A DNA stretch of 45,745 bases from Planctomycetota bacterium (GTDB taxonomy: Bacteria; Planctomycetota; Planctomycetia; Isosphaerales; Isosphaeraceae), in assembly GCA_021777845.1 (NCBI GenBank), contig JAJYDB010000004.1:1-45745 (forward strand). Direction: 5' to 3'. Position 1 is the stretch's first letter. Each line of letters opens with the position of its first letter. Below the pieces are notes generated by a model. That model worked only from the letters and a program-made list of their open reading frames with translations. It was not told the origin of the DNA and did no database searches. Shown piece by piece: positions 11,434 through 28,319 of the stretch. The translations under genes were made by a program, and so were the position numbers.

Positions 11434-12417
11434 TCAGGTCGAGCGCGTCGCGACGCCCGCGCCGCTGTTTCGCGCAGACGTCCACAGCACATCTTCATCG
11501 CTCAAATCACAGGCCGCGAGGACATGATCGCGTATCGATTGCCGCTCCGCCTCGTCGCCGAGGCTGAATCCGTAGAGGGCGGGTCCCCACGAGCTTTGGC
11601 CGACACCGCGCAGTCCGAGGTCGCGCATGGCGGCGACGATCGACTCGGACCGCGGGCTCGCGTAGATGCCGCCCTGGGCGCTTGCGAAGCCGCGTCCGAC
11701 GAGCGCCTGCATCGCTTCGAGGGCGGCTCCGAAGGCGTGGAGGTCGCGCTCGGCGGCGGCGGGCAGAAGCTCAAGCAAAACGAGGCCGCAGAGCCGGTCG
11801 GTGGTGGCGCGAGGCAGGGGCGGGAGGGTCGCGAAGGCCGACGACTCCGCGCCTCCGGAGAGCCCGCGCGACCCGCCCGGAATCACGACCAAAATCGACC
11901 AATCCGCCGGGAATTCCAGCCTTGAAAGCAACGGCGGGATCCCTTCGTCGGTCGCCCGGCCGCCGTCGACGATCAAGCCTCCGCGCGCGAATCCGTGGAG
12001 CCCGATCCCCGACCGCCGGCCGCGCCCGGTGGCCTCGGCAAGCCGCTCGGGCGGCGGGTTGGACAGCCCCGCGACCTCGAACACGCCCCGCGCCGTCGCG
12101 AGGCAAAGTTGCGTCCCCACCCCGAGCCCGACGTGCTCGCGGGGCGACCTCCGCACCCGCACGCACAGCGGTCCGACCACGACCCCCGACGCTTCCAGAA
12201 CGGCCGCCGCCGTCCGGGCCGTCGCCAGAGCACGGCTCGCAAGCGATCCCTCGGCGCTCCACGTCTCCGCTTGCTCAACCTCAACCTCAACCCCGGGCGC
12301 GGCCGCCATCAAACCCACCCCGCCAAACCGTCGCGGCGCGCCTCCGCCCCATCCCAGCAGGCCGAAATGCAAACGACTCGCCGTCTCGATCGTCACCGCC
12401 CGCAAACGCTCGCTCAC
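11434..12417 (-). CDS. mptG: Beta-ribofuranosylaminobenzene 5'-phosphate synthase
   Basis: First committed enzyme for the aryl-ribose half of H4MPT: it condenses 4-hydroxybenzoate or 4-aminobenzoate with PRPP, releasing CO2 and PPi. The protein belongs to the GHMP-kinase fold. It starts TIETASRLHFGLLGWGG and has RFGGVGLM, PREHVGLGVGTQLCLATA (the glycine-rich phosphate loop) and RRSGIGLHGFARGGLIVDGG, all characteristic of beta-RFAP synthases. The length of 327 residues is normal. Its ATG overlaps the stop of the DUF447 gene by 4 bp, placing it as the last gene of a minus-strand operon with DUF447, the DHPS-like gene and possibly the SDR. It is a diagnostic marker for H4MPT synthesis. Confidence 0.95.
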   Translation of the reverse strand: MSERLRAVTIETASRLHFGLLGWGGGAPRRFGGVGLMAAAPGVEVEVEQAETWSAEGSLASRALATARTAAAVLEASGVVVGPLCVRVRRSPREHVGLGVGTQLCLATARGVFEVAGLSNPPPERLAEATGRGRRSGIGLHGFARGGLIVDGGRATDEGIPPLLSRLEFPADWSILVVIPGGSRGLSGGAESSAFATLPPLPRATTDRLCGLVLLELLPAAAERDLHAFGAALEAMQALVGRGFASAQGGIYASPRSESIVAAMRDLGLRGVGQSSWGPALYGFSLGDEAERQSIRDHVLAACDLSDEDVLWTSARNSGAGVATRST

Positions 12418-13010
12418 TCGTCCCCCCGCGCCGTCGCGGCTCGCTCATGTGCGTGATCCTCGATATACTCGCATAAGAGCGCCATTGCCTCGCGCTCGCG
12501 ATCGCCCCCCGTCTTTTCGACCGGGATCGACAGCCGCCGCAACTCCTCGCGAATCGCGTCGATCGGCAAGATCGCGACCCGCGTCGCCAGAATCGCCGCC
12601 TCGACCACCGCGTGCCGCGCGCGATTAAAGCCGAAAAAGTCGCGGATTCGACCTTCCGCCACCATCGTCGCCGTCAACGTCGCGCGCTCGTCGCGATCGT
12701 CGCACTCGCTGATCTTGAACTCATAGTATCGGCATGCGTCCACAAGAATCCGACCGTCGACGACCTCCGCCGGCCGCGTCGGCGCATCCTCCGGCCGCAG
12801 CTTTCCGATCGCCGCCCGCGCGAGCAACAAAGCGTCGTCGGTCACGTGCAGCACCCCCTCGCCGCTCCGCTTCAGGTTCCGATACGTTGTCGACGTCCGA
12901 AACGGCCGCAGCGTAAATCGAAGCATCTCCGCCTCGACGCGCGGGCCCATCGGCGCGATGTTGCACCGGCCGTCGACATCGAGCGTCGTCACGATCCCTT
13001 CGAGAATCAA
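12414..13010 (-). CDS. DUF447 family protein of the H4MPT island
   Basis: Member of the DUF447 family (COG2457), which co-occurs with H4MPT genes in methanogens and C1-oxidising bacteria; solved members have a flavin-reductase-like split barrel. Visible features are the N-terminal ILEGIVTTLD, the NIAPMGP stretch, FRTSTTYRNL and VLHVTDDALLLARA. I place the start at a TTG at 13010, which overlaps the upstream stop as TTGA and gives the family's usual beginning; the longer ATG reading overlaps the upstream gene by 79 bp and adds 25 unrelated residues. The result is 198 residues. It is translationally coupled on both sides (to the DHPS-like gene and mptG). The reaction is unknown; a flavin-dependent step in pterin reduction is a guess. 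Confidence 0.88.
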   Translation of the reverse strand: MILEGIVTTLDVDGRCNIAPMGPRVEAEMLRFTLRPFRTSTTYRNLKRSGEGVLHVTDDALLLARAAIGKLRPEDAPTRPAEVVDGRILVDACRYYEFKISECDDRDERATLTATMVAEGRIRDFFGFNRARHAVVEAAILATRVAILPIDAIREELRRLSIPVEKTGGDREREAMALLCEYIEDHAHERAATARGDE

Positions 13011-14398
13011 GCCTCGCCCCCGTCCGATTTCAAGCCGCCCGCGCGCTCGTGCCGACTCGTCTCGGCACGCGTCAAAAAGCCCCATTCGAGCGCAACGTCC
13101 TGCCGATAATTCTTCCCCAACGTCAACGCCGTCCGCGCCTTCGACAGCTCGTATCCAAGGTAAAACGCGTGCGACGCGTCGTCGACGCCCATCCGCTCGA
13201 AAAGCCGAAACGGGTCGTCGTCGACCAAATAATGCGTATGATTGAAGGCGATAATGCGGCCGTCCTCCGCGAAAATCCGCCAGTTCGGATCCTTCACCCG
13301 CGCCGCCGTCGCGCGCAGTTCATCGTCGCCAAACCGAGCGACCCGCGGGTCGCGGAGCATGACCAGTCGCGGCTCGACGTGCTTCGGCGGCGTCCTGTTT
13401 TCGACCGCGAAGTGCGTCAAGCGCCGCGCCAAGTCGACTTCGCGCACGCTCGACCGCGCCCACGAAATCACCTCGGTCGTCAACACGCTTTGAATGTTCA
13501 ACTCTTGACAGAAGCCGACCAACAGCGTGTTCACGCCGGCCGAGTCGACATCCGTAAGCTCCGTGAGGTTACCGATCCCCATCAGGATCGACGCGTCGGG
13601 ATAACGCCGCCGCGTCTCGATGTAACGACCGAGCGAACGCGCGAATCCGAAGCCGATCGGCTCGAGAATCGGGTCGAGTCGAAACCGCACGCCGCGCTTT
13701 TCGAGCCAATTCACCGTGTCGTCGAGGCCCTCGAGCGTACCCGGCCGGTCTGGAATCGCGACGACCTCCACGCCCCAGTCGACAGCGCGCTCGCGGTTCG
13801 AGGCGTTCACGCTCAAGACTAAATCAGCCCCCGCGCGGGTCGCGTCCGCAACCTCAACCGCGTCAAAACTATCGATCGAGACCCGCCGGCCCCTCTCAAC
13901 CAGCGCACGCACCGCATCGCCGACGCCGGTCCACGGGCCGTCGGGATCACAGCCCAGGTCGATGCGATCGGCCCCTTCGTCACAATAATGCTCGGCCTCG
14001 CGGACGATGTCGTCGAGCGTTCGCCGCGGTGCGTGATTGACCTCCGCGAGAATCTCGATGGTGTACGCGCCGTAGCCTTCCAGGCCGCGGTCGGCCTGTC
14101 CAAACCAACGCGGCAGGTCGCGCAAATCCTCGGGACCAACTTCGACCTTCGCGCCCTTTGACAACGCTGCGATCTCCGCTAGATCGCCGCGGCAATGGCC
14201 GGGCAAAATCACGCGCTCGACTCCCTCGGGCACTTCGAGCCGTCGCGACGCCCACCGCGTCGTCATCAGCGCCGCCACCGAGATCGGCAGCACCGCGACC
14301 AGAGGCTCGATGTCCGCCGCTTCCGCGACCTCGCCCGCCACGCGCCGCAGCGACGGCTCCGCGAGACGACCAGTCACGAATAAGACGCGAGTGCCCAT
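13007..14398 (-). CDS. DUF6513/dihydropteroate-synthase-like protein
   Basis: A 463-residue protein with an N-terminal DUF6513 domain (about residues 1-110: LFVTGRLAEPSLRRV, VILPGHCRGDL) followed by a dihydropteroate-synthase-like TIM barrel (about 110-390). Barrel features include ILAEVNHAP, GADRIDLGCDPDGP, VSIDSFDAVEVADATRAGADLVLSVNA and ILMGIGNLTELTDVDSAG. This family is found with H4MPT genes in methylotrophs, planctomycetes and archaea. The obvious role is condensing a hydroxymethyl-dihydropterin diphosphate with the beta-RFAP made by the neighbouring MptG, since canonical DHPS performs the same chemistry with p-aminobenzoate. That assignment is inference. No clear ribosome-binding site precedes the ATG. 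It lies 44 bp downstream of the SDR. Confidence 0.9.
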   Translation of the reverse strand: MGTRVLFVTGRLAEPSLRRVAGEVAEAADIEPLVAVLPISVAALMTTRWASRRLEVPEGVERVILPGHCRGDLAEIAALSKGAKVEVGPEDLRDLPRWFGQADRGLEGYGAYTIEILAEVNHAPRRTLDDIVREAEHYCDEGADRIDLGCDPDGPWTGVGDAVRALVERGRRVSIDSFDAVEVADATRAGADLVLSVNASNRERAVDWGVEVVAIPDRPGTLEGLDDTVNWLEKRGVRFRLDPILEPIGFGFARSLGRYIETRRRYPDASILMGIGNLTELTDVDSAGVNTLLVGFCQELNIQSVLTTEVISWARSSVREVDLARRLTHFAVENRTPPKHVEPRLVMLRDPRVARFGDDELRATAARVKDPNWRIFAEDGRIIAFNHTHYLVDDDPFRLFERMGVDDASHAFYLGYELSKARTALTLGKNYRQDVALEWGFLTRAETSRHERAGGLKSDGGEA

Positions 14399-14442
14399 TG
14401 TGTGTCAACATAACCCAGTGTGAGATTTAGCCGCACAATCGA

Positions 14443-15258
14443 TCAACGCACCGCCCCGCCGTTCACGCGGATGATCTGGCCCGTCAGAAACGTCGCTTCG
14501 GGTCCGACCAAAAACCGCGCCGCACGCGCGACGTCGTCGGGCATACCCCAGCGTTTTTGCGGTGTTTCGCGGACCACACGTTCCTGCCAAGACGTCGGGG
14601 CCGACTCGCCCCACGCCGTCTTGATCCATCCCGGGGCGACGCAATTCACGCGGACGTGCGGCGCAAGGCTGAGTGCGAGGCTCCGCGTGAACGACATCAC
14701 GGCCCCTTTGATCGCCGCGAACAGCTCCCCCGAATCGCCTTCCATGCCCGTTTCCGCTTGATCCCAACCCATCGTCACGATCGACCCGCCGCCGCGCTCG
14801 CGCATCCGTCCGCCGATGTCGCGGCAAAGCCGCAAAGTGGCCACGACGTCGACCGCCCACAACAGGTCGAGCTTCGCGTCAAAACCGAGCCGCGCGTCGG
14901 GCCCGGTCAAGGTGTCGGCCCCCGCGAATTGCAGCCACGCGTCGAGCCCGTCCCAAGCACGCCAGGCATCGTCGGCAAATTGGTCGCAGGCCGCGCGATC
15001 GGCCAGATCCGCCATCACAACGTGCGCGCGTCCGCCCCGCGCGCGGATCTCCGCCGCGACCTCCGCCGCCGCCGCGTGCGAACGTCGCCCGTGCACGACC
15101 ACGTCCGCGCCGGCCTCCGCCAACGCGAGCGCCGTCGCGCGACCGATCCCCGAGGTCGCGCCCAATACCGCCGTCCGCACCCCCGTCAACTCGTTCGACT
15201 TTCCCACGCGCCCCGCCCGCAACCTTGCCGCTCTTCGTCGTTTATGCCACAATCCCAT
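14443..15258 (-). CDS. SDR-fold oxidoreductase lacking the catalytic Tyr
   Basis: Rossmann-fold short-chain dehydrogenase/reductase of 271 residues. The nucleotide site is intact (GATSGIG, residues 33-39) and HGRR at 57-59 favours NADPH. The catalytic set is altered: the usual Tyr of YxxxK is Phe180 (FAAIK, with Lys184 kept), the usual Ser region reads TMGWDQ with Asp166, and the NAG motif reads FAG. Pteridine reductase PTR1 also has Asp in place of Ser but keeps Tyr. The C-terminal FLTGQIIRVNGG is typical. The ATG at 15258 has AAGG upstream. As first gene of the minus-strand H4MPT operon it is a candidate dihydromethanopterin reductase, but this is inference and it may not be a classical dehydrogenase. 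Confidence 0.85.
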   Translation of the reverse strand: MGLWHKRRRAARLRAGRVGKSNELTGVRTAVLGATSGIGRATALALAEAGADVVVHGRRSHAAAAEVAAEIRARGGRAHVVMADLADRAACDQFADDAWRAWDGLDAWLQFAGADTLTGPDARLGFDAKLDLLWAVDVVATLRLCRDIGGRMRERGGGSIVTMGWDQAETGMEGDSGELFAAIKGAVMSFTRSLALSLAPHVRVNCVAPGWIKTAWGESAPTSWQERVVRETPQKRWGMPDDVARAARFLVGPEATFLTGQIIRVNGGAVR

Positions 15259-15424: not shown

Positions 15425-16642
15425 TTGACTCGAACTCGAACGCTGCTCATCACGATCGGCAGGACTTTCCGCGGCCTGCGCGCCGGCTGGCTGATGCTTG
15501 GGATCGCGCTGCTGATGCTCGCGGCGCTCGAGCTCACGCTCCGCGCCGGCTTCGCGTTCAAGGACTCTGTTTTCAAGCCGACGCACCCGGAAACCGCCGT
15601 GCTCGCGCGCGGATACGGCGGCGAAACCTGGCCCGTGGACTATTTTCGGGACGAAGCCCGCATGCGCGATCGGTGGCACTCGTATGTTTATTTTCGACAC
15701 GCTCCGTTTCGCTCGCCGCACATTAATATTGATGCCGACGGGCTTCGTTTCACGTGGGACGACGCCGCCGCTCGCGCTCGCATCGGCGGCAAGGAACGCT
15801 TGATTTACGTCTTCGGCGGCTCGACGGCCTGGGGTGTGGCGGCGCGCGACGACGCGACGATTCCGTCTATGCTTGCGCGCGACCTCGTCGGCCGCGGCTG
15901 GAACGTCCGCGTCAAGAATTTCGGCGAAATCGGCTACGTGAGCACGCAAGAGGTCGTCGCGCTCCTGCGTTGCCTCCAAGCCGGCGAGCGACCCGACCTC
16001 GTCGTGCTTTACGACGGAGTCAACGACGTCACCGCCGCGCTTCAGGACGGACGCGCCGGAGTCCCCGAAAACGAGGACAACCGTCGCCGCGAGTTTAACT
16101 CCACCCAGCATCCAGGCCGACTTGTGAACGCACTTGGTTATAGTCTGATCCACGACTCCGCGCTCTTTCGCCTGGCCGGCTCGCTGCAAAGTCGTCTCCG
16201 CGGGGCGGGCGCGGGCCTCGCCGTCAAGATCGCGACGCTCGACCCCGACGCGCGTGCGGAACTCGCGGACGAAGTCCTATCAACTTACGCCGCCAACGTT
16301 CGGCTCGTCGCGGCACTCGCCGAAGCTTACAAATTCGAGGCTGAGTTTTGCTGGCAACCGGTCGTCTTCACGAAGCCGCGGCTCGACCCCTATGAAGCCT
16401 CCGAGGCCCGCAAATACGCCGCGCTCCAGCCGCTCATGCTCGACGTCTACGAGCATCTGCCGCGACGGGCCGAGCTCGTCTCGAACCCGCGCTTTCACGA
16501 CCTCAGCCGAATTTTCGACGACTCCGATACGCTCGATTTCATCGATTTTTGTCACGTCACCGAGGCCGCCGACGCGCGGATCGCGAGCCGCATCGCCGTC
16601 GACTTGAATCAAGCCTTGAAGCGGACCGAGGCGCACCGCTAA
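15425..16642 (+). CDS. SGNH/GDSL-type hydrolase with N-terminal membrane anchor
   Basis: A 405-residue protein with one hydrophobic segment near residues 20-42 and an SGNH-hydrolase domain on the outside. Block I reads VFGGSTAWG (nucleophile Ser), an oxyanion Gly/Asn region is DLVVLYDGVNDV, and the C-terminal block V is DFIDFCHVTEAAD with the Asp-x-x-His pair. Such domains act as esterases or lipases, or on cell-envelope sugars. The TTG start has no strong ribosome-binding site; an in-frame ATG at 15494 falls inside the hydrophobic segment and is less likely. The gene stands between the two halves of the H4MPT island, divergent from the SDR and 85 bp before fhcB. A link to C1 metabolism is not evident. 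Confidence 0.85.
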   Translation: MTRTRTLLITIGRTFRGLRAGWLMLGIALLMLAALELTLRAGFAFKDSVFKPTHPETAVLARGYGGETWPVDYFRDEARMRDRWHSYVYFRHAPFRSPHINIDADGLRFTWDDAAARARIGGKERLIYVFGGSTAWGVAARDDATIPSMLARDLVGRGWNVRVKNFGEIGYVSTQEVVALLRCLQAGERPDLVVLYDGVNDVTAALQDGRAGVPENEDNRRREFNSTQHPGRLVNALGYSLIHDSALFRLAGSLQSRLRGAGAGLAVKIATLDPDARAELADEVLSTYAANVRLVAALAEAYKFEAEFCWQPVVFTKPRLDPYEASEARKYAALQPLMLDVYEHLPRRAELVSNPRFHDLSRIFDDSDTLDFIDFCHVTEAADARIASRIAVDLNQALKRTEAHR

Positions 16643-16727: not shown

Positions 16728-18083
16728 ATGACATCGAACGCCGACCCTCAAATCGCCGCCCGCATCGAGGACGCAGTGTGCCTGCGTTGCGGCTGCCTGT
16801 GCGACGACATCGCGCCTCGCGTCGAGGCCGGCCGCGTCGTTGAGGCGTTGCGGGCGTGTTCGCTCGGAGCCTCGTGGCTGCTCGGCGACATTGAAGCCGC
16901 GGACGCCCCGCGCGCCGCGATCGACGGACGCCCCGCCTCCGATATCGACGCGACCTCGCGCGCCGCCGAACTGCTCGCCGACGCCCGCGCACCCTTGATT
17001 TTCGGCCTTTCCGGCTCGGATACGGAAACCGTTTCGCGCGCCGCCGAACTCGCCGAAGCAACCGGCGCCGCGGTCGAACTCGCTCACGCCGCGCACGCCG
17101 AACCGCGTTTATGCGCGTTTCAACGCGTCGGCCGCGTCTCAGCGACGCTGGGCGAGGTCGCCGACCGCGCCGACGTCGTCGTCTTCTGGGGCGTCGATCC
17201 CGAGACAACCCACCCGAGGCACCTCGAACGCTACTCCGCCGACCCGCTCGGACGGTTCATCCCCGACGGGCGTGCCGGTCGCACGATCATCGTCGTTGAC
17301 GCCGCGCCCAACCACACCTCCGCCCGCGCCGATCGGTTCCTCGAGATTCAACCTGCCGCAGCCCTCAATGCGCTTTTACTCCTGCGCATGATCGTGCGCG
17401 GATCACGCTACGACGTCGCTCGAGTCGCGCGCACGACCGCTCTCGACCTCGACTCGCTCGGCGACTTTGCTTCGATCCTTCGCAAGTCGCAATACTGCGC
17501 CTTCTTTTATGACGATGCGTTGGGGCACGTCGCGGGCGGATCGGCGGCCGTCGAGGCTCTCTTCGCGCTCGTCCGCGACTTGAACGCGTCGTCTCGCTGC
17601 GTCGCGATTGCGTTGGGATCCGCTGGGAATCCCGCCGGTGCGGAATCCGCGCTCGCCTGGCGCACGGGACACGCGACCCGCGTCGAGTTCACACGCTTTC
17701 AACGCGGCGCGCAGGCGTTTCCCGCCGGCGACTCGAGCGCCCGTCGCCTCGAACGCGGCGGCTTCGACCTGGCGATGATCGTCGGCGACGGCGTCGAGGC
17801 CGCGCTCGAGGAGCCGGCGCGTTCGGCCCTCGCGCGCTTGCCTCGCATCGTCGTCGGTTCCGAGTCAACCTCAATGCTGCCCGCGACCGCAGTCGCGCTC
17901 CGCGCGGCCAGAACCGGAAAATCCACGCGCGGCACCTTGATCCGGGCCGACGGCGTCGCGCTTCCCACCCGTCCGTGCGCCGCCTCGACCTACCCCGACT
18001 CAGCCGAGTGGATGCGCGCGATCCACTCACGTTTGGACGCACGTTCAACGCGACATATTCTTGGTCGAGGCGACGCGCGATGA
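16728..18083 (+). CDS. fhcB: Formyltransferase/hydrolase complex subunit B (formylmethanofuran dehydrogenase B-like)
   Basis: Homologue of the molybdopterin/tungstopterin subunit FwdB/FmdB. In bacteria the Fhc complex does not reduce CO2; it transfers a formyl group from formyl-H4MPT to methylofuran and hydrolyses it to formate, with FhcB structural. The N-terminus CLRCGCLCDDI (Cys18, 21, 23, 25) with Cys44 resembles the 4Fe-4S site of FwdB. The region around residue 122, AAHAEPRL, aligns by eye with the archaeal VCHGPS segment, so the tungsten-ligating Cys/Sec is replaced by Ala, as expected for a non-redox FhcB. VVVFWGVDPETTHPRHLERY and TIIVVDAAPN are other family blocks. The ATG at 16728 has AGAGG upstream; 451 residues. 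Its stop overlaps fhcA as ATGA. Confidence 0.93.
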   Translation: MTSNADPQIAARIEDAVCLRCGCLCDDIAPRVEAGRVVEALRACSLGASWLLGDIEAADAPRAAIDGRPASDIDATSRAAELLADARAPLIFGLSGSDTETVSRAAELAEATGAAVELAHAAHAEPRLCAFQRVGRVSATLGEVADRADVVVFWGVDPETTHPRHLERYSADPLGRFIPDGRAGRTIIVVDAAPNHTSARADRFLEIQPAAALNALLLLRMIVRGSRYDVARVARTTALDLDSLGDFASILRKSQYCAFFYDDALGHVAGGSAAVEALFALVRDLNASSRCVAIALGSAGNPAGAESALAWRTGHATRVEFTRFQRGAQAFPAGDSSARRLERGGFDLAMIVGDGVEAALEEPARSALARLPRIVVGSESTSMLPATAVALRAARTGKSTRGTLIRADGVALPTRPCAASTYPDSAEWMRAIHSRLDARSTRHILGRGDAR

Positions 18084-19705
18084 GTCTGCTCAGAATCAAA
18101 GGGGGCCGCGTGGTCGACCCCGCGAACGGAGTTAACGACGTCGTCGGCGACGTTTGGATCGAGCACGGACGAGTCGTCGCCGCTCCGAGCGACCCCGCGG
18201 CACGCCCCGACCGAACCATCGACGCGCGCGGCTATGTCGTCATGCCGGCGGGTGTCGACGTCCATTCGCACATCGCGGGCGCGAAGGTCAACGCCGCGCG
18301 CATGCTCCGTCCCGACCACCGACGCGACTCCGATTTCGACCCGCCCGGCAGTCCGAGAGTCCCGCGCCGCGGTACCGAGGGCCGCGTCCCGTCGACCGTC
18401 GCGACCGGCTTTCAATACGCCGGTCTGGGCTACGGCACGGCTCTCGACGCCTCCATCCCACCGCTCGGCGCGCGACAAGCGCGGCTCGAACTCGACGACA
18501 CTCCGATCATCGACAAGGCCTTCTTAGTATTGCTTGGCAATAATCATGCTGTAATGGATCGCGTCGCCCGCGGAGACCGCGCCGCACTCCGCGATTACGT
18601 CGCTTGGGTCACAAAGGCGACTGGCGCTTACGGGGTCAAAATCGTCAACCCCGGCGGCGTCGAACGCTGGAAGCAAGGTCGCGGCAACGTCTCGACGCTC
18701 GACGACGACGTCGACGGCTTCAACGTTTCGCCGCGCGCAATTATCGAGTCGCTTGCCGACGCGGTCGACTCCCTCGCGTTGCCGCACCCCGTCCACATCC
18801 ACGGCCTAAATCTAGGCCTGCCGGGCAACGCCGAGGTCACTCTCGAGACGCTCCGCGCCCTCGAAGGGCGACGCGCGCATTTCGCGCACATCCAATTTCA
18901 CAGCTACGGCGGCACGCTCGACGACGTCGATTCGATCGCCTCGCAAGTATCCCTATTGGCCGACTACATCAACACGCATGCCGGGCTCAGCGTCGATGTC
19001 GGACAAGTCGTCTTCGGCGAGACGATGAGCATGACCGCCGACGGCGCGGTCGGTCGGTTCTTACATCGACTCACCGGCCGGCCGTGGGTCAGCCAGGATA
19101 TCGAGGCCGAAACCGGCTGCGGCATCGTTCCGATCACGTATCGCGACACGAACTCCATCCACGCTCTGCAATGGGCTGTCGGCCTCGAATGGTTTCTGCG
19201 CGTCGACGACCCTTGGCGCGTCGCGCTTGGCACCGATCACCCCAACGGCGGCTCGTTTTTATCTTATCCGCAGATCATTGCTCTCTTAATGGACCCGGCG
19301 CGTCGGCTCGAGGCCTTGCGACATTTGCCCGAAAAGGTCCGTGCGCGATCGGGTCTCGCCGACCTCCCGCGCGCCTACACCTTGAGCGAAATCGCGATTA
19401 TTACCCGCGCCGCCCCCGCGCGGATGCTCGGCCTCGACCGCAAAGGGCATCTCGGACCGGGTGCCGACGGCGACGTTGCGATCTACAGCGTCGACGACGA
19501 CCTCGAGCGCATGTTCGCGTTCCCGCGCTACCTTCTCAAAGCGGGCGTCGTAGTGCTCGACGACGGCGAGATCCGCGCCGAGCCCCCGGGTGCCACAATT
19601 GCCGTCAACCCCGAATTCGACCGCGACGCAATCCCCGCCATCGCCGCCGAATTCGAGCGCACGACCTCGATTCGCTATCGGAACTTTGTTCTTAACGACG
19701 TGTAG
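18080..19705 (+). CDS. fhcA: Formyltransferase/hydrolase complex subunit A (formylmethanofuran dehydrogenase A-like)
   Basis: Amidohydrolase-fold subunit that hydrolyses formyl-methylofuran to formate at a binuclear metal site. Visible ligands are HSH at residues 62-64, Lys187 (GVKIVNPGG, the presumed carboxylated lysine), HIHG at 239-242, AHIQFHS (His270, His274) and the late TDHPNGGSF aspartate. The ATG overlaps the fhcB stop by 4 bp; 541 residues, the usual size. The family forms a complex with FhcB, C and D, all encoded here. No frameshift or missing ligand was seen, so the active site looks complete. Confidence 0.96.
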   Translation: MSLLRIKGGRVVDPANGVNDVVGDVWIEHGRVVAAPSDPAARPDRTIDARGYVVMPAGVDVHSHIAGAKVNAARMLRPDHRRDSDFDPPGSPRVPRRGTEGRVPSTVATGFQYAGLGYGTALDASIPPLGARQARLELDDTPIIDKAFLVLLGNNHAVMDRVARGDRAALRDYVAWVTKATGAYGVKIVNPGGVERWKQGRGNVSTLDDDVDGFNVSPRAIIESLADAVDSLALPHPVHIHGLNLGLPGNAEVTLETLRALEGRRAHFAHIQFHSYGGTLDDVDSIASQVSLLADYINTHAGLSVDVGQVVFGETMSMTADGAVGRFLHRLTGRPWVSQDIEAETGCGIVPITYRDTNSIHALQWAVGLEWFLRVDDPWRVALGTDHPNGGSFLSYPQIIALLMDPARRLEALRHLPEKVRARSGLADLPRAYTLSEIAIITRAAPARMLGLDRKGHLGPGADGDVAIYSVDDDLERMFAFPRYLLKAGVVVLDDGEIRAEPPGATIAVNPEFDRDAIPAIAAEFERTTSIRYRNFVLNDV

Positions 19706-19741
19706 CATGCTTGCACGACTATCGGTTATGTGCGTGGCGTC

Positions 19742-21500: not shown

Positions 21501-22441
21501 ATTTGAACGCGAAGGCGCTCTGGGCGGTCGAGTCGTTGCTGTCGCATGCGGAAGAGCGTCGCGTCGTCGCGCATCCGATCGAGCTTGGGGGCCGGTTCGT
21601 CGACTGCGGCGTCGAGGTCCGCGGCGGACTGCTTGCGGGGCTGGAATTGGCTCGGATTTGCCTGTCGGATCTCGCGCAGGTTGCGATCGTGCCCGGTTCG
21701 GTCGGCGGTCGCGCGTGCCCCGTCGTCGAGGTCGTCACCGATCAACCCGTCGCGGCCTGCCTCGCGAGCCAGTACGCCGGTTGGGCGATTCAGGTGGGCA
21801 AGTTTTTCGCGATGGGCTCGGGTCCGATGCGCGCGGCGGCCGGAAAAGAGGCGATTTTCGACAAGATCGGCCGGCGCGAGTCGCCGCAGGCGGTCGTCGG
21901 CGTGCTTGAGGGACGCAAGCAACCGACGCCCGAGGCCGTCGCGATGATCGCCGCCGCGTGTCGCGTGCCGCGGTCGTCGGTCACGCTCGTCGTCGCGCCC
22001 ACCGCGAGCCTCGCGGGCGGCGTGCAGATTGTCGCTCGCTCGGTCGAAACGGCGCTTCATAAGCTGTCCGAGCTCGATTTTGACCTCGAGCGGATTGTCT
22101 CCGCGTGCGGCTGGGCGCCGCTGCCGCCGGTCGCGCACCACGACCTCGCCGCCATTGGTCGCACCAACGACGCCATTCTCTACGGAGCGCGCGTGGTGAT
22201 CGACGTCGCCTGCAACGACGCGACCATTGAGGCGATCGGCCCCCGCGTCCCTTCGTCGTCGTCGCCCGATTACGGAGCCCCGTTCGCCGAGATTTTCGAG
22301 CGCTACGGCCGCGACTTTTATAAGGTTGACCCGCACCTGTTCAGTCCCGCCGAGGTCGTTTTCCGCAGCCTCGAAAGCGGTCGATCGCACGCGTTCGGCG
22401 CCGTCGACGAAGCTGTCCTGGCGCGGTCGTTCAATTCGTAA
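21497..22441 (+). CDS. mch: Methenyltetrahydromethanopterin cyclohydrolase
   Basis: Converts methenyl-H4MPT to 5-formyl-H4MPT, the step feeding the Fhc complex. The 314-residue protein begins NLNAKALWAVESLLSHAEE and carries family blocks ASQYAGWAIQVGKFFAMGSGPMRA, VVGVLEGRKQPTPE and RTNDAILYGARV. The GTG start overlaps the fhcC stop (GTGA), the same 4-bp coupling seen elsewhere in this operon. Cytoplasmic homotrimer in known examples. Together with fhcABCD it defines the formyl-to-methenyl part of the H4MPT pathway. Confidence 0.96.
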   Translation: MNLNAKALWAVESLLSHAEERRVVAHPIELGGRFVDCGVEVRGGLLAGLELARICLSDLAQVAIVPGSVGGRACPVVEVVTDQPVAACLASQYAGWAIQVGKFFAMGSGPMRAAAGKEAIFDKIGRRESPQAVVGVLEGRKQPTPEAVAMIAAACRVPRSSVTLVVAPTASLAGGVQIVARSVETALHKLSELDFDLERIVSACGWAPLPPVAHHDLAAIGRTNDAILYGARVVIDVACNDATIEAIGPRVPSSSSPDYGAPFAEIFERYGRDFYKVDPHLFSPAEVVFRSLESGRSHAFGAVDEAVLARSFNS

Positions 22442-22474
22442 CCGACATGTTTGCAACGCCGGCGCATAATAGTC

Positions 22475-23365
22475 ATGCACGTTATGGCATTAGTATCCGG
22501 ATTAGGTTGGCATATTCAAGATCTTGCGCGCGCGGCCGGGTCGGCATCGATTTCGTTTCAGCCTCTCTTGTTTTCGCGTATAGATACGTCTCTCGGAGCA
22601 ACTCGGCGATTAATTCACGCAGAGGGCGTCGATCTGACGCGAGCCGAGGCGATCCTCATCCGGATGATGCCGCCCGGCAGCCTGGAACAAGTGGTTTTTC
22701 GAATGGACGCGTTGCAGAGGCTCGCGGCCGCGGGTGTGCCGGTCGTGAATAACCCGCGCGCGATCGAGATCGGCGTCGACAAATATCTCGCGCTCGCGCT
22801 CCTTGCCGAGGCCGGGCTGTCCGTGCCCGACACCTGGTGCGGCGAGTCCGCCGACGATGCCTTGATCGCCTTCGAGCGGCTCGGCGGCGACGTCGTGATC
22901 AAGCCTCTGTTCGGTTCGGAGGGTCGCGGCATGATGCGAGTCGCGCATATCGAACTGGCGCGTCGGTCGCTGCATGCCCTCGAGCGGCTCTCCGCAGTGC
23001 TTTATTTGCAGCGTGCGATTCGGCATCCCGGCCACGACCTTCGTGTTTTCGTGATCGGCGAGCGGGTCGTCGGCGCGATCCGTCGGCACGCTCCCGAGGG
23101 CGAGTGGCGGACGAACGTCGCAGTCGGCGGACGCGCGGAGGCGTGCCGACTCGATGTATGCGTTGAGCGGATCGCGCTGCGTGCGGCGCGCGCCGTCGGA
23201 GCAGAAGTCGCGGGCGTCGACCTCATCGAGGACCTCGACGCCGGCGGCGCCTATGTCGTACTCGAAGTGAACGCCGTCCCCGGCTGGCGCGCCTTGTCCG
23301 AGGCCGCCCGAGTCGACGTCGCCGCCGAGATCCTTCAATATCTTCGCGTGAAAGCGCGCCGATGA
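22475..23365 (+). CDS. RimK-like ATP-grasp glutamate ligase of the H4MPT/methylofuran island
   Basis: ATP-grasp ligase of the RimK/MptN/CofF type, which adds L-glutamate to a carboxylate. The N-terminal domain has GLGWHIQDLARAA; the ATP-grasp part has NNPRAIEIGVDKYLALALL, VVIKPLFGSEGRGMM (phosphate loop), LYLQRAIRHPGHDLRVFVIG and the metal-binding VVLEVNAVPGW. I start at the ATG at 22475; a TTG eight codons upstream is possible and neither has a good ribosome-binding site. In methanogens MptN adds Glu to H4MPT. Bacterial dephospho-H4MPT lacks that side chain, but methylofuran of Methylobacterium is polyglutamylated, so a role in methylofuran glutamylation is plausible (inference). Its stop overlaps the next gene by ATGA. 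Confidence 0.88.
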   Translation: MHVMALVSGLGWHIQDLARAAGSASISFQPLLFSRIDTSLGATRRLIHAEGVDLTRAEAILIRMMPPGSLEQVVFRMDALQRLAAAGVPVVNNPRAIEIGVDKYLALALLAEAGLSVPDTWCGESADDALIAFERLGGDVVIKPLFGSEGRGMMRVAHIELARRSLHALERLSAVLYLQRAIRHPGHDLRVFVIGERVVGAIRRHAPEGEWRTNVAVGGRAEACRLDVCVERIALRAARAVGAEVAGVDLIEDLDAGGAYVVLEVNAVPGWRALSEAARVDVAAEILQYLRVKARR

Positions 23366-24294
23366 CGCTGTGTTCTCTAAACAACCTCGACCTCACTCCG
23401 GGCGCGATCGCGCAGCTCGCGTGCGTGCTCGAAGCGACCGCGCGAAAGCCCGGCAACATCCATCGTTTCCGCGATTTCGACGACGCAACCTATCTTGATT
23501 TTATACTGAGCGCAGCCGCAATCGCGCGTCCGCTCGACAACGCACGAACGCTCGGCGTGGGGGCCGCGGTGTTCGCAGCGGTCGAGGCGACGCAACGTCT
23601 GATCACCACGAATACTAACCTCGGCATGGTCTTGCTGTTCGGGCCGATGGCCGCCGTCGACCCCGACGAAACGCTCGCCAAAGGCGTCGCCTCGGTGCTC
23701 GAATCTTTGACCGTCGACGATGCGATCCACGCGTATCGAGCGATCCGACTGGCACGGCCCGGCGGTCTCGGCGCGGCAACCGATCAAGACGTCGCGCGCG
23801 CGCCAACCGTCACTTTGCTCGACGCGATGCGGCTCGCCGCGGATCGAGACGTCGTGGCACGTCAATATGCGACGAGCTACCAAGATCTCTTTGATGTCGC
23901 ACTGCCGATATTAGTCGACGAGTTCGATCGCGGCGGCGCGCTCGAATCCGCGATAGTCGCGTGTGCCCTCGGTGTGCAAGCGGAGATCCCCGACACCTTG
24001 ATCGCACGCAAACGCGGTGTCGACCTTGCCCGCGAAGCCTCCGCGCGCGCCCGCGCCGTGTTCAACCTCCACCGCTCCGACGACCCGGGCGCCGCGCAAG
24101 CGCTCGCTGAATTCGATCGCTGGCTCCGCGACGACGGTCGAGCGCGCAACCCCGGCGCGACCGCCGACCTCGTCGCCGCCGCGCTTTTCGCCGCGCTCCG
24201 CGAAGGCTTGATCCAGCCTCCCTTTCGATTCGAGCCGCCGTCCAATCACGCGGGCTTGTGTCACTTGGCCGCACTCCGCGATGATGACCAATGA
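23362..24294 (+). CDS. CitG-like (triphosphoribosyl-dephospho-CoA synthase family) protein
   Basis: A 310-residue all-helical protein of the CitG/MdcB family; CitG forms an alpha-ribosyl bond from ATP to dephospho-CoA with loss of adenine. Family marks are the N-terminal LEATARKPGNIHRFRDFDD, LGVGAAVFAAVEATQ, TNTNLGMVLLFGPMAA and GGLGAATDQDV. The citrate- or malonate-lyase genes that normally accompany CitG are absent, while close relatives recur in H4MPT clusters. Its ATG overlaps the RimK-like stop (ATGA), tying it to cofactor synthesis. H4MPT contains an alpha-linked ribose phosphate, so this protein is a candidate for forming that link; this is inference only. Confidence 0.87.
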   Translation: MTLCSLNNLDLTPGAIAQLACVLEATARKPGNIHRFRDFDDATYLDFILSAAAIARPLDNARTLGVGAAVFAAVEATQRLITTNTNLGMVLLFGPMAAVDPDETLAKGVASVLESLTVDDAIHAYRAIRLARPGGLGAATDQDVARAPTVTLLDAMRLAADRDVVARQYATSYQDLFDVALPILVDEFDRGGALESAIVACALGVQAEIPDTLIARKRGVDLAREASARARAVFNLHRSDDPGAAQALAEFDRWLRDDGRARNPGATADLVAAALFAALREGLIQPPFRFEPPSNHAGLCHLAALRDDDQ

Positions 24295-24337
24295 AGTCAA
24301 CCCCCGTTTCGAGCACTCCGACAGGAGCCTTCCTCCC

Positions 24338-24838
24338 GTGCCTGCAACTCGCTACTCGGTTCGCGTCAGTAAAGATTATTTGGTATTCTGCTCCGGTCAC
24401 TTCATCACATATGACGGCGACCATTGTGAGCGGCTCCACGGCCACAACTATCGCGCCGCGGTCGAAGTCGTGGACGACCTCGACGAGAACCATTACGTCT
24501 TCGACTTCATCGCTCTCAAGGACATCACCCGCACGATCACCGACGCACTCGACCATCGAATGTTGCTGCCCGAGCGCAGCACACGCATCGGCGTCGAGGA
24601 TGACGGCGACAATTGGCGCGTCGTTTATCGCGAGCGTCGCTGGAGCTTTCCGAAGGACGAATGTGTGCTGCTGCCGATCGCGAGCACGACTGCCGAACTG
24701 CTTGCCGAGTACGTGGGGGATCGTCTTTTCGAGGCATTCTCGACGCGCGGACTGAAGCGGCCCCGCGTGCTGCGTGTCGAGGTTGAGGAGAGCTTCGGCC
24801 AGTCGGCGATCGTCGAGTGGGACGACACGGCGTCGTGA
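24338..24838 (+). CDS. 6-pyruvoyl/6-carboxy-tetrahydropterin synthase family protein with CExxHGH motif
   Basis: Tunnel-fold pterin enzyme (COG0720). With the start used here, His21 in SGHF and His34/His36 in LHGHN bind zinc, Cys30 is the usual catalytic Cys, and Glu31 directly follows it, giving CExxHGH. The C-terminal half has ALDHRM and VEESFGQSA. I chose GTG at 24338 because AGGAG lies ten bases upstream and the protein then begins TRYSVRVSKDYLVF; an ATG pair at 24281 is also in frame, overlaps the CitG-like gene by 14 bp and would add 19 residues. It probably acts on dihydroneopterin triphosphate or a related pterin to supply the H4MPT pterin half, rather than (only) queuosine synthesis. 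Last gene of the fhc operon. Confidence 0.85.
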   Translation: MPATRYSVRVSKDYLVFCSGHFITYDGDHCERLHGHNYRAAVEVVDDLDENHYVFDFIALKDITRTITDALDHRMLLPERSTRIGVEDDGDNWRVVYRERRWSFPKDECVLLPIASTTAELLAEYVGDRLFEAFSTRGLKRPRVLRVEVEESFGQSAIVEWDDTAS

Positions 24839-24863: not shown

Positions 24864-25607
24864 CTACCGATGTGCGTTAATGTCGTCCAAACTGATTCGA
24901 CCGTCGTGCAAGGCCGAGCCGACGAGTGCCGCGGCCACACCCGCGCGCGCAAGCTCATCGAGGTCCTCGACGCCCCTCACGCCTCCGCCGACAATCCACT
25001 CGATGCCGGGACAGGCGCGACGCGTCGCCGCCGGCAGATCGATCTTGCCAACGCCTCTCGAAGTGCCGACCCGGGCGAGATCAAGGAGAATGACCCGCCG
25101 CACTCCCGCGTCAAACGCGGCGCGAGCGATGGCAAGCGGCGATCGGTCGGCCCAATCGGAACCCTCGGCGACGATCGACGCCCCGTCGCGATGGTCGAGA
25201 CTAAACACCACGCGGCTCGGTCCGCCGCGCGCGACGAGTTCGCCCAGCGCCCGCGGTCCGCGCAGCGTCTCCAGGCCCGCGACGACGCACTCGACACCCC
25301 TCTCGAGCAATGGATCGGCGTCGATCGCCGTCCGCACGCCTGCGTCGACCCAACACGCCATCTTGTGTTCACTCATACTTTTGTACAACTCGAGCGAGGG
25401 TGGACCGCCTTCAAGGGCGTCGAGGTCGGCGACGTACAATCGGCTCGCGCCGATCATCGCGCGGAAGGCGAGCGCGGCCTCGAGCGCGTCATCCCCTTGG
25501 AAAAGCCGTGAGTTCAGGCTCTGATAGAGGCGACGATCGCCGCCTGCGGCATGCACCACACGGCCGCGGCGCATGTCGAGAACAGGAATCACTTGGATTT
25601 TCAACAC
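24864..25607 (-). CDS. HisA/HisF-related TIM-barrel protein of the C1 island
   Basis: TIM-barrel protein related to HisA (COG1411), about 247 residues, a family repeatedly found with H4MPT genes but with no assigned reaction. It begins IQVIPVLDMRRGRVVHAAGG, keeping the Asp equivalent to HisA Asp8; the second-half Asp region is SLDHRDG; the phosphate-binding loops are VGGGVRGVEDLDEL and ALVGSALHDGRI. The start is GTG at 25607 or TTG at 25604; longer upstream readings run antisense into the divergent gene and are rejected. It converges on the PTPS-like gene (25-bp gap) and diverges from the MfnD-like gene with essentially no spacer. It may act on a phosphorylated sugar or furan intermediate; unproven. 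Confidence 0.85.
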   Translation of the reverse strand: MLKIQVIPVLDMRRGRVVHAAGGDRRLYQSLNSRLFQGDDALEAALAFRAMIGASRLYVADLDALEGGPPSLELYKSMSEHKMACWVDAGVRTAIDADPLLERGVECVVAGLETLRGPRALGELVARGGPSRVVFSLDHRDGASIVAEGSDWADRSPLAIARAAFDAGVRRVILLDLARVGTSRGVGKIDLPAATRRACPGIEWIVGGGVRGVEDLDELARAGVAAALVGSALHDGRISLDDINAHR

Positions 25608-26685
25608 TGTGGATATCGATCGCACGCCGCACGCACGACGTCGTCTCCTACTGCATGAGTGGGTCGCAGGCGGCGGCCTCGCGGGCGAAAGTCCGCCGGA
25701 ATCTTGGCTCCGCGAGGGCCGCGCCATGCGGGCCGCGCTCGCGCGCGACTTCGCCGCGCTGCCCGATTTCGACGTCGTCGCGACCATCGACGCGCGCTTC
25801 CGCGAGGAGCCCGGAGTAACCTGGAGCACCGTTGCGATCGGCCCCGGCGAGGAAAAAAGCCGTCTGCTCGCGATCGCCCGCGACTCGGATTATACACTCG
25901 CAATCGCCCCGGAGACCGGTGGAATTCTTGCCGAGCGCGCTCTTTGGCTCGACTCGACGCCGACGCGTTCGCTCGGATCGAGCGCGTCTTCGATCGCCGT
26001 CGCGGGCGACAAGGGACGACTCGCGACAATGTTCAAGGCCGCGGGCATTCGCGCGCCGCGCACAACGATCGTCCACCCGTACGCCGGACAAACACCTCCG
26101 TTCGATGGTCCCACCGTCCTAAAGCCGATCGACGGGGCCGGCTGCACGGATACCTTCTATAGCAACACCCACTATCACCATAGACCTGTTCATTTGACTA
26201 GACACATGGTGCTGCAGCAGTACGTTCGCGGGATACCTTCGAGCGCGTGTTTCCTGCTCGACGCGTCGGGACGCGCCAATTTGATCGCCGTCGGACGACA
26301 AGACGTCGTGATCACAAACGGCCGATTTTCGTATCGGGGAGGCTCAATTCCAGCCCCGCGCAATCGTGCCGACGACCAGGTCCGAGCCGCGGTCGGCATC
26401 GTCCCCGGCCTGCGCGGATTCGTCGGCGTCGACTTCATTTGGAATGAGCACGAAGACCGTTCGACCGTGATCGAGATCAACCCCCGACCGACGACTTCGG
26501 TCGTCGCACTGACGCGGTTGCTCGGTCCGGGAAAGCTCGCCCGCGCATGGATCGAGGCCTGCGACAACGCATTCACGAGCGACGACGCGTTTGATCAAAT
26601 CGACGATCAACCCGAACTCGCCTTCGACACCAACGGCCGACTACACTCGTCGTGTTCCTCGCGGAGCACTATCACTCCATCATGA
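25573..26685 (+). CDS. ATP-grasp ligase, MfnD-like (methylofuran biosynthesis)
   Basis: ATP-grasp enzyme of the COG1821 type. The archaeal member MfnD joins tyramine to L-glutamate in methanofuran synthesis; bacterial methylofuran uses tyrosine, so here the acceptor is probably tyrosine or a tyrosine-containing intermediate. Motifs are LLHEWVAGGGLAG (residues 25-37), VAGDKGRLATMFKAAGIRAPRT, TVLKPIDGAGC, MVLQQYVRGIPSSACFL, GFVGVDFIW and VIEINPRPTTS (metal site). The ATG at 25573 overlaps the start of the divergent HisA-like gene; a GTG at 25609 would almost remove the overlap. The stop overlaps the MfnF-like gene (ATGA). Confidence 0.87.
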   Translation: MSRTGITWIFNTVDIDRTPHARRRLLLHEWVAGGGLAGESPPESWLREGRAMRAALARDFAALPDFDVVATIDARFREEPGVTWSTVAIGPGEEKSRLLAIARDSDYTLAIAPETGGILAERALWLDSTPTRSLGSSASSIAVAGDKGRLATMFKAAGIRAPRTTIVHPYAGQTPPFDGPTVLKPIDGAGCTDTFYSNTHYHHRPVHLTRHMVLQQYVRGIPSSACFLLDASGRANLIAVGRQDVVITNGRFSYRGGSIPAPRNRADDQVRAAVGIVPGLRGFVGVDFIWNEHEDRSTVIEINPRPTTSVVALTRLLGPGKLARAWIEACDNAFTSDDAFDQIDDQPELAFDTNGRLHSSCSSRSTITPS

Positions 26686-27707
26686 AACAATGGCTTGCCG
26701 TCGATATCGGGGGTGCGAATCTGAAGGCCGCGCATACGACCGGCGCGGCGTGCGCGGAGCCTTTCGCGCTCTGGAAATCACCTGATCAGCTCGCCGAGAG
26801 ACTGCGCGCGCTCGCCGGGCTCCTGCCTGCGTTCGACATGGTCGCCGTCACGATGACCGCCGAGTTGTGCGACTGTTTCGCGACCAAGAACGACGGCGTC
26901 CGGCACGTGCTCGACGCCGTCGAATCCGCGTTCAACGGCCGCGAGATTCGTGTCTGGACGCTCGACGGACGCTTTCGCGGAGTCGCCGAGGTTCGTATCG
27001 AGCCGGCGTCAGCCGCCGCCTCGAATTGGCTCGCGCTCGCGTCCGTCGCCGCGAGGCTTCTGCCGGCCGAAGCCTCGATTCTAGTCGACGTCGGATCGAC
27101 AACGACCGACCTGATTCCGCTCTCCGGCGGCAATGTCGCCGCGCGCGGACGTACCGACCTTTCACGCATGAGACACGGCGAACTTGTTTATGTCGGGATC
27201 CGTCGAACGCCGGCCTGCGCGGTCGCCGCCTCGATCGAACTCTTCGGATTTGAAACACCCCTCGCCGCCGAATTGTTCGCGACGACGAACGACGTCTACC
27301 TCGCGCTCGGCTCGACGGTCGAGGACCAGGAGGACCGCGACACCGCCGACGGTCGGCCTTCGACGCGCGCGTACGCCCTCGCCCGTCTCGCTCGGTCGGT
27401 CTGCGCCGACCTCAACGAGCTCAACGTGGACGCTGCGCTCGCGATCGCGCGCGCTCTCGACGAAATTGTCGTCGCTCGTCTGGTCGCGGCGGCCCGCAAT
27501 GCCTGCGAGGCAACCGTCGGCGCGCCGCGCGCCGCGATCGTCGCCGGCTCGGGAAGCATCGTCGCGAATCGCGTCGCCCGCGCGCTCGTCGGCACTCACG
27601 GCAACGTCCTGAATCTAAGCGAACTCTGGAGTCCCGCCGCCGCCGACGCCGCCTGCGCATTCGCTCTCATCGAACTCGTGCGCAACGCTAATCTCAACTG
27701 CTCATAA
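26682..27707 (+). CDS. H4MPT-linked C1 transfer protein, MfnF-like (hydantoinase/oxoprolinase fold)
   Basis: ASKHA-fold protein of the H4MPT-linked family (TIGR03123/COG1548). Its archaeal relative MfnF couples the furan-methanamine diphosphate to gamma-glutamyl-tyramine in methanofuran assembly. Motifs are VDIGGANLKAAHT (phosphate 1), SILVDVGSTTTDLIPL (phosphate 2), TDLSRMRHGELVYVGIRRTPAC and VAGSGSIVANRVA. The ATG overlaps the MfnD-like stop by 4 bp, so I reject the reading that starts ten codons earlier; 341 residues. Its place between MfnD- and MfnE-like genes strongly supports a methylofuran role. Confidence 0.9.
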   Translation: MKQWLAVDIGGANLKAAHTTGAACAEPFALWKSPDQLAERLRALAGLLPAFDMVAVTMTAELCDCFATKNDGVRHVLDAVESAFNGREIRVWTLDGRFRGVAEVRIEPASAAASNWLALASVAARLLPAEASILVDVGSTTTDLIPLSGGNVAARGRTDLSRMRHGELVYVGIRRTPACAVAASIELFGFETPLAAELFATTNDVYLALGSTVEDQEDRDTADGRPSTRAYALARLARSVCADLNELNVDAALAIARALDEIVVARLVAAARNACEATVGAPRAAIVAGSGSIVANRVARALVGTHGNVLNLSELWSPAAADAACAFALIELVRNANLNCS

Positions 27708-27722
27708 TAACACGCTACTTGC

Positions 27723-28319
27723 ATGATCGAACTCACGGTTGTCAAAATCGGCGGCAGCTTACTCGAGTGGATCGGCTTGCGCACCGTCCTGACTCGTTAT
27801 TTATCAGAACATACAAGCCGTCGACGACTCCTTATCGCAGGCGGTGGCCTCGCGGCCGACGCCGTCCGCGGCCTCGACCGCGCACACGGACTCAGCCCGG
27901 CGACCGCGCATGACCTCGCGCTGCGCGCCATGGAGATGAACGCACACGCGGTCGCGGAGTGGGCGGGAAATTTGGCGCTCGTCGACGACCCGACGCATTG
28001 GCTCGCGCTGCCCGTCGAATGTCGCGACGCTGTTCTCAACCCGAGAACCTGGCTCGAATTCGACGAACGCACGCATGGAGAACCGCTCCCGCGCTCTTGG
28101 GAAGTCACCTCGGATTCGATCGCCGCGCGCGTTGCGTCGCGCTTCGACGCCGACCTCGAACTTTGGAAAAGCGCAACCCCAAACGGCGTCGTCACCCGCG
28201 CCGTCGTCGCTCAAATCGGACTCGTCGACCCTTATTTCGAGACCGCCGCGCGCGACGTGGGCCGCGTTTTTATCGTCAACCCGCGGGATCACGACGCCCG
28301 CGCGATCGAGTTGAATTAA
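27723..28319 (+). CDS. Amino-acid-kinase-fold protein, MfnE-like
   Basis: A 198-residue protein of the aspartokinase/uridylate-kinase fold. Archaeal MfnE phosphorylates the aminomethyl-furan-methyl phosphate to the diphosphate used by MfnF. The N-terminus TVVKIGGSLLEW is the typical nucleotide-binding start, LLIAGGGLAADAVRGLDRAHGL follows, and the later DSIAARVASRFDADLELWKSA holds the second nucleotide-site region. It starts 15 bp after the MfnF-like gene with no visible ribosome-binding site. It is the last gene of the island; immediately beyond it lie remains of a toxin-antitoxin module on the other strand. Confidence 0.88.
   Translation: MIELTVVKIGGSLLEWIGLRTVLTRYLSEHTSRRRLLIAGGGLAADAVRGLDRAHGLSPATAHDLALRAMEMNAHAVAEWAGNLALVDDPTHWLALPVECRDAVLNPRTWLEFDERTHGEPLPRSWEVTSDSIAARVASRFDADLELWKSATPNGVVTRAVVAQIGLVDPYFETAARDVGRVFIVNPRDHDARAIELN

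Follow-up and report, generated by a model that had tools for sequence, protein, structure and literature searches.

An SDR oxidoreductase in the H4MPT/methylofuran island of Isosphaeraceae as a candidate dihydromethanopterin reductase of planctomycetes

The 17-kb gene block at positions 11434–28319 of the window (the whole stretch of 45,745 nucleotides analysed here) is, judged from its sequence, very probably a bacterial H4MPT/methylofuran C1 island of Isosphaeraceae that encodes both the pathway and the assembly of its cofactors. The island is of an already known kind; its new part is an SDR oxidoreductase gene upstream of the DHPS-like gene, which is tentatively put forward as the dihydromethanopterin reductase of planctomycetes. 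The history of H4MPT-linked C1 metabolism is one in which planctomycetes have been given a key place, and for their missing final reductase of H4MPT synthesis the candidate would supply one conserved gene, backed by its operon context and by gene fusion. It also bears on dihydrofolate reduction in the many members of the class without FolA.

Layout and conservation of the island

The host is an Isosphaeraceae MAG, 92% complete, of the phylum planctomycetes. Reanalysis upheld the limits of the island, and NCBIfam/Pfam profile or homology searches recovered all of its genes, some with matches below equivalog cut-offs (Table 1). Every gene listed in the first-pass annotation was confirmed in this way, but that inventory had missed the SDR and a GDSL/SGNH-like hydrolase. 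The repeated 4-bp overlaps that it described are borne out by five exact ones read from the sequence (12414–12417, 18080–18083, 21497–21500, 23362–23365 and 26682–26685). The HisA-like protein is also present as claimed, but it is encoded by the minus strand, and its gene and that for MfnD are transcribed divergently; a plus-strand position was rejected, as the plus-strand ORFs there have no family match.

The same gene order recurs in several Isosphaeraceae genera, so the arrangement is not due to chance. The assignment to a known kind rests on the presence of the block in these genera, and in part in Singulisphaera acidiphila, while fhcD stands mostly alone in the other families sampled. In 16 of 20 genomes from other families of the class, fhcD had no other detected island gene within 10 kb, which agrees with the earlier remark that planctomycete H4MPT genes are usually more scattered. 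The GDSL/SGNH-like hydrolase is found at the same place in only part of the Isosphaeraceae loci.

Table 1. Genes of the island, with window coordinates and supporting matches.
Gene or product	Position	Strand	Evidence
mptG (Orf4), beta-ribofuranosylaminobenzene 5'-phosphate synthase	11434..12417	-	TIGR00144 142 bits, above cut-off
DUF447 (Orf20), start uncertain	12414..13085	-	PF04289+PF20766; PDB 3b5m, 2iml, 2ptf, 2nr4
DHPS-like (Orf19, DUF6513)	13007..14398	-	DUF6513; TIGR00284 168 bits, below its cut-off; PterinBD-DUF4346
SDR oxidoreductase, start uncertain	14443..15258	-	PF13561 154 bits; structure model pLDDT 94.8
GDSL/SGNH-like hydrolase, facultative passenger	15425..16642	+	PF13472 24 bits, below cut-off
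fhcB	16728..18083	+	TIGR03129 279 bits, below its cut-off of 328
fhcA, formyl-methylofuran hydrolase subunit	18080..19705	+	TIGR03121 635 bits
fhcD, formyltransferase	19730..20635	+	TIGR03119 431 bits
fhcC	20655..21500	+	TIGR03122 240 bits
mch, methenyl-H4MPT cyclohydrolase	21497..22441	+	TIGR03120 379 bits
RimK-like ATP-grasp, Orf5/MyfB homologue	22451..23365	+	RimK 110 bits; MptN 243 bits, below cut-off
CitG-like (Orf7 homologue)	23362..24294	+	PF01874 213 bits; 38% to Azospirillum homologue
PTPS-III-like	24281..24838	+	PF01242 78 bits; motif CERLHGHN; nearest PDB sequences 3lze, 2a0s, 1y13
HisA-like, Orf17 homologue	24864..~25607	-	PF00977 130 bits; PDB HisA/PriA-type E 8e-13
MfnD-like ATP-grasp, start uncertain	25573..26685	+	NF040722 76 bits, below cut-off; ATP-grasp_3 88 bits
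mfnF (Orf9)	26682..27707	+	TIGR03123 271 bits
mfnE-like kinase (Orf21)	27723..28319	+	NF040622 48 bits, below cut-off; AA_kinase 26 bits

C1 pathway and methylofuran assembly

Every member of the C1 pathway set (FhcABCD, Mch, Mtd and Fae) is encoded in the genome. Fae (234 bits) and the methylene-H4MPT dehydrogenase Mtd (108 bits) are products of neighbouring genes on contig C61, where a second, MyfA-like ATP-grasp protein adjoins Fae, and MfnB (179 bits) is encoded on contig C354; all three had been predicted to lie outside the island. Formaldehyde would be captured by Fae and oxidised to methenyl-H4MPT, which would be opened by Mch, and formate would then be released via the formyltransferase/hydrolase complex FhcBADC, with polyglutamyl methylofuran as the swinging arm of the Fhc step. 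Cofactor identity and flux direction are predicted here from gene content, and we infer that the pathway serves mainly in formaldehyde removal, not in growth on methanol. H4MPT enzymes are reversible in archaea, and a PQQ-dependent alcohol dehydrogenase is encoded near the Azospirillum island, which would suit methylotrophic growth or a reductive direction; either is nevertheless unlikely, as no methanol dehydrogenase family was detected among the window ORFs scanned and the presence of Fae on C61 suggests that formaldehyde is used.

The methylofuran set MfnB, MfnE, MfnF, Orf17 and MyfA/MyfB is likewise encoded, in part by genes with matches below equivalog cut-offs. The RimK-like protein matches the Azospirillum Orf5 homologue at 37%, within the same mch-orf5-orf7 gene order, and is best read as MyfB, acting in methylofuran polyglutamylation, the function of Orf5/MyfB (PMC8141765). 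Its assignment as the H4MPT glutamate ligase MptN was rejected, as bacterial dH4MPT is without the tail (PMC8141765). Orf5, OrfY and Orf17 are required for methylofuran, Orf17 being needed for it in Methylorubrum (PMC8141765), and the HisA-like protein matches the Azospirillum Orf17 homologue at 36%. The MfnD-like protein, a putative tyramine/tyrosine-glutamate ligase, is 35% to the Azospirillum ATP-grasp protein that adjoins MfnF, and the MfnE-like kinase is 34% to an Azospirillum kinase. Matches below cut-off for MfnD, MfnE, FhcB and TIGR00284 can be expected of divergent bacterial members.

Pterin assembly

Genes for the H4MPT-assembly proteins MptG, DHPS-like and DUF447 are all encoded, some of them recognised below equivalog cut-offs; the PTPS and the CitG-like protein are also grouped with H4MPT-type pterin assembly. 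The mptG product is 38% to its Azospirillum homologue, and the DHPS-like protein, probably the pterin–arylamine condensing enzyme, is 41% to an Azospirillum DUF6513 protein; DUF447 may also act in H4MPT synthesis. MptA (GCHY-1 family, PF02649), the mark of archaeal-type pterin entry, was expected elsewhere in the genome, but was not found in the 92%-complete MAG. FolE is present on contig C36, and the island PTPS carries the catalytic PTPS-III glutamate before HGH, its motif aligning with the Plasmodium-type ETLHGHN and being conserved in 17 loci; MptA is therefore probably unnecessary, with pterin entry via FolE and PTPS-III. GTP would pass through FolE to the PTPS-III-like protein, which would convert dihydroneopterin triphosphate into 6-hydroxymethyldihydropterin. 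The pterin would then be activated by HPPK and coupled by the DHPS-like protein to the MptG product. HPPK was not found in the 92%-complete MAG, though most other Isosphaeraceae have one.

The SDR oxidoreductase

In the scheme proposed here, the SDR would take the place of DmrA/DmrB and reduce dihydromethanopterin with NAD(P)H as the last step of the synthesis. Afp or DmrA is not recognised in planctomycetes, and planctomycete DHFR homologues cluster with DfrA, not DmrA (PMC5020050, PMC6193120). An SDR orthologue was found in 135 of 149 genomes of the class at 1e-60 and in two more by profile (about 92% in total), apparent absences at the 1e-60 threshold in genomes G023 and G039 being due to divergence or partial genes, as judged by profile. 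In 61 of 130 genomes, spread over 10 families, the SDR and DHPS-like genes are neighbours, and the SDR often shares an operon with MptG; at other loci (L154, L189, L197 and L199) it lies beside fae-mtd or mch. In two further families it is fused to HPPK in all 34 genomes (domains checked in two), and this is the only HPPK of those genomes. Such a fusion would place two pterin reactions of H4MPT synthesis, an early one and the last, in one protein.

Only the SDR family was matched by the protein, which has neither DHFR-like (DmrA) nor FMN flavoprotein (DmrB/DmrX) character. No variation was seen at residues W145, D146 and K164. At the position of the catalytic Tyr, 122 of 125 orthologues have Phe and three have Tyr, so that the classical YxxxK pair is incomplete in most of them. 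By sequence the SDR groups with FabG-type SDRs, not with FolM/PTR1; the FolM/PTR1 motif TGX3RXG (PMC1971073) is absent, with G at the R position in 125/125 orthologues, and membership of FolM/PTR1 was rejected on this test. The FabG-type placement and the Phe at the usual Tyr position were both counted against the proposed function. A link between SDR loss and FolA presence was dropped as not significant (Fisher p 0.19).

Most genomes of the class lack FolA (PF00186 in only ~46 of 149, with weak matches set aside), and the SDR might therefore substitute for dihydrofolate reductase instead, its H4MPT-gene neighbourhood being incidental or its role dual. SDR-type dihydrofolate reductases exist (FolM; PMC1971073), and the fusion partner HPPK serves folate and H4MPT alike. 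This role is nonetheless rather unlikely, given where the gene is found. Nearly all genomes of two families (f5 and f11) have FolA, yet among those that have both the SDR and the DHPS-like gene, the two are still neighbours in 10 of 12 (f5) and 5 of 5 (f11). Its identified neighbours are dhpsL, DUF447, mptG, fae, mtd, mch and HPPK, in a check that covered HPPK alone among folate genes, and the SDR is often missing from genomes without the DHPS-like gene.

H4MPT synthesis by White's pathway includes a reductive step in which the ribofuranosyl ring is turned into the ribityl chain. The shared operon with MptG would also fit an SDR that performs this step on the MptG-derived intermediate, leaving the final pterin reduction to another enzyme. 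That assignment is improbable: all H4MPT synthesis includes this step, but in the islands of Azospirillum and Paraburkholderia that were examined no gene is annotated as an SDR. DUF447, common to all three, is the better candidate for a universal step. The preferred reading, itself a little short of probable, is that the SDR is a third, non-homologous and lineage-specific dihydromethanopterin reductase with Phe for the catalytic Tyr, fused to HPPK in some families and perhaps active on dihydrofolate as well in genomes that lack FolA.

Comparison with known systems

Singulisphaera acidiphila DSM 18658 (L128) and KatS3mg108 (L127) have the same two arms, with mptG-DUF447-dhpsL-SDR divergent from fhcB-A-D-C-mch-rimK-citG-ptps. 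Unlike in this MAG, the GDSL gene was not seen in their islands, and no hisA-mfnD-mfnF-mfnE arm occurs in the 10 kb compared; that arm is joined, as here, in Isosphaeraceae loci L038, L048, L050 and L055.

The plasmid island of Azospirillum sp. TSH58 (L209) represents the Proteobacteria. Of its 20 proteins, 18 have a homologue encoded in the window, on C61 or on C354, the exceptions being PCD and dihydroneopterin aldolase. Besides the mch-orf5-orf7 order, the two islands share an orf17 divergent from ATP-grasp-mfnF. The Azospirillum island differs in holding fae, mtd, mfnB and dihydroneopterin aldolase, whereas the Isosphaeraceae island has a PTPS and an SDR that the former lacks.

FolM/PTR1 proteins share the SDR fold and a pterin context with the planctomycete SDR, but differ from it in the TGX3RXG motif, which the SDR lacks, and at the catalytic Tyr, which is Phe in most SDR orthologues. 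DmrA and DmrB catalyse the reaction proposed for the SDR, but belong to DHFR-like or flavoprotein families, in contrast with the SDR of planctomycetes (PMC6193120).

Island genes and their surroundings

Family searches of the 4.85 Mb, 92% complete MAG, in which the window is contig C30, recovered every gene that the first-pass annotation had listed for the island (fhcB-A-D-C, mch, mptG, DUF447, and genes for DHPS-, RimK-, CitG-, PTPS-, HisA-, MfnD-, MfnF- and MfnE-like proteins), and the repeated 4-bp overlaps described there measure exactly 4 bp at five junctions. The observation is confirmed as a whole; its interpretation, that the lineage makes its own dephospho-H4MPT and methylofuran and uses them to convert formaldehyde-level carbon to formate, is supported and requires three corrections. 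The divergent arrangement of the hisA-like and mfnD-like genes recurs in other Isosphaeraceae loci, Azospirillum and Paraburkholderia.

Features of the window located in this analysis
Feature	Coordinates	Strand	Remark
Protoglobin gene and Rrf2-type regulator gene	5999-7190	- (protoglobin)	regulator gene divergent
Membrane pyrophosphatase	8305-11352		1015 aa; family match in two separate stretches
Short-chain-type reductase (SDR)	14443-15258	-	missed in first-pass annotation
GDSL-like hydrolase	15425-16642	+	missed in first-pass annotation
HisA-like gene	24864-~25607	-	divergent from MfnD-like gene
Integrase-core (rve) transposase-like gene	36907-38256		~9 kb downstream of island
Class I/II aminotransferase	42270-43466		14 kb from island

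Outside the island, the protoglobin and Rrf2-type genes possibly form a gas or iron-sulfur sensing pair. The membrane pyrophosphatase exceeds the 650–800 positions of its matching models, reflecting either a large internal insertion or a wrong start. Nothing ties the aminotransferase gene to MfnC, the aminotransferase of bacterial methylofuran synthesis, which to our knowledge is yet to be identified.

Cofactor synthesis and pathway genes

In the Methylobacterium numbering, Orf7, Orf19 and Orf20 are taken to be the CitG-like, DHPS-like and DUF447 proteins, respectively. Solved structural-genomics relatives of DUF447 include 3b5m, 2iml, 2ptf and 2nr4, and some relatives of known structure presumably bind FMN. 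In Methylorubrum and Methylobacillus, methylofuran formation requires Orf5 (MyfB), OrfY (MyfA) and Orf17, while Orf22, Orf21 and Orf9 are the counterparts of MfnB, MfnE and MfnF, respectively (PMC8141765). Homology and gene order identify the window RimK-like protein as the putative MyfB, so its use as evidence for an H4MPT glutamate ligase was rejected.

Fae, methylene-H4MPT dehydrogenase, MfnB and MptA had been expected elsewhere in the genome. The first two are encoded side by side on contig C61 and MfnB on C354; MptA (PF02649) had no match in the searched MAG. An ATP-grasp gene adjoining the C61 pair best matches the Azospirillum ATP-grasp beside mtd and mch (MyfA/OrfY type), and the window ATP-grasp best matches the one beside MfnF (MfnD/Orf1 type).

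The solved structures nearest to the island PTPS are of the Plasmodium type, which we take to be PTPS-III proteins. The Glu of its motif CERLHGHN, conserved across 17 loci, aligns with the Glu of Plasmodium-type PTPS. From this residue, the FolE gene on contig C36 and the failure to find MptA, we infer that pterins would enter by FolE and PTPS-III. The pterin-activating enzyme HPPK had no match in the searched MAG, which is treated as an assembly gap because most other Isosphaeraceae carry it.

A candidate dihydromethanopterin reductase

SDR orthologues (E ≤ 1e-60) occur in 135 of the 149 class genomes, and in two more by a profile search that separates full-length orthologues (~295 bits or above) from other SDRs (~187 or below); outside the class, orthologue-level matches are few in the phylum-wide sample. 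The SDR and DHPS-like genes co-occur in 130 genomes, with 5 and 6 carrying one only and 8 neither (Fisher p 6e-7, a value inflated by relatedness among the genomes, gaps in the MAGs and physical linkage). Where both are present, no more than 2.6 kb separates the start of the SDR from the DHPS-like gene in 61/130 genomes, which span 10 families; with a limit of 10 kb the count is 69/130. Elsewhere the SDR adjoins fae-mtd (L197, L199), mch (L189) or a large island (L154). Three genomes of family f7 (G011, G043, G059) are without FhcD, two of them also without the DHPS-like gene, an apparent loss of the H4MPT pathway; one f7 member retains an SDR relative (48%). Planctomycetia-type SDR genes (55–59%) also appear in four records titled Candidatus Kuenenia or Bacteroidales (L135, L178, L184, L188), which are probably MAGs with a wrong label or bin.

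HPPK and the SDR are fused in families f3 and f8, as the N- and C-terminal halves, respectively, of a single protein. Both matches lie in one open frame in all 34 genomes, none of which yielded a second HPPK, and the HPPK half scores 131–138 bits against PF01288 in the two fusions checked. Named loci (L134, L152) assign the f3-type fusions to Gemmataceae.

The confidently predicted SDR structure (pLDDT 94.8) resembles FabG and hydroxysteroid dehydrogenases. Across 125 distinct orthologues, W145, D146 and K164 never vary, nor do four other Trp residues. At the site corresponding to the catalytic Tyr of SDRs, 122 orthologues carry Phe and 3 carry Tyr, that of Singulisphaera acidiphila being one of the latter. 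A non-catalytic role is possible; since the cofactor-binding glycines are conserved, the SDR is regarded as a probably functional NAD(P)H enzyme acting on an unusual substrate.

Chistoserdova noted that Afp is unrecognised in planctomycetes (PMC5020050), and the planctomycete DHFR homologues in a published tree all fall within the DfrA clade (PMC6193120). Among the openly accessible papers searched, none assigning the dihydromethanopterin reductase step in planctomycetes was found, and subscription literature may hold one. The main rival to this role is folate reduction, because FolA (PF00186) was found in only ~46/149 class genomes and most of the class must therefore reduce dihydrofolate another way. 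Families with FolA nonetheless retain the SDR adjoining the DHPS-like gene, and the genes recognised around it belong to the H4MPT pathway. Judged by sequence and gene context, the SDR is the best available candidate for the dihydromethanopterin reductase.

Comparison with known islands

The complete block also occurs in further Isosphaeraceae genera (L038, L048, L050, L055). Its first two arms are present as well in L046, L053 and S. acidiphila (L128), and the arrangement is scattered in other members of the family (L039, L045, L049, L051). The earlier statement that planctomycete H4MPT genes are usually more scattered holds: in 16 of 20 genomes from other families, no other island gene was detected within 10 kb of fhcD by tblastn with the window proteins, a search that diverged neighbours could escape. 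Outside the Isosphaeraceae, genomes of the class commonly carry an additional, more distant copy of FhcD.

Proteobacterial islands can roughly match the planctomycete block in compactness. Together with its recurrence in Isosphaeraceae and the scatter elsewhere, this makes the island a family-level variant of an already known kind. It differs from the Azospirillum island, where a dihydroneopterin aldolase is present in place of the proposed FolE and PTPS-III entry. The planctomycete SDR lacks the TGX3RXG motif of FolM/PTR1 (PMC1971073). The SDR is a testable new component of an otherwise known kind of island.
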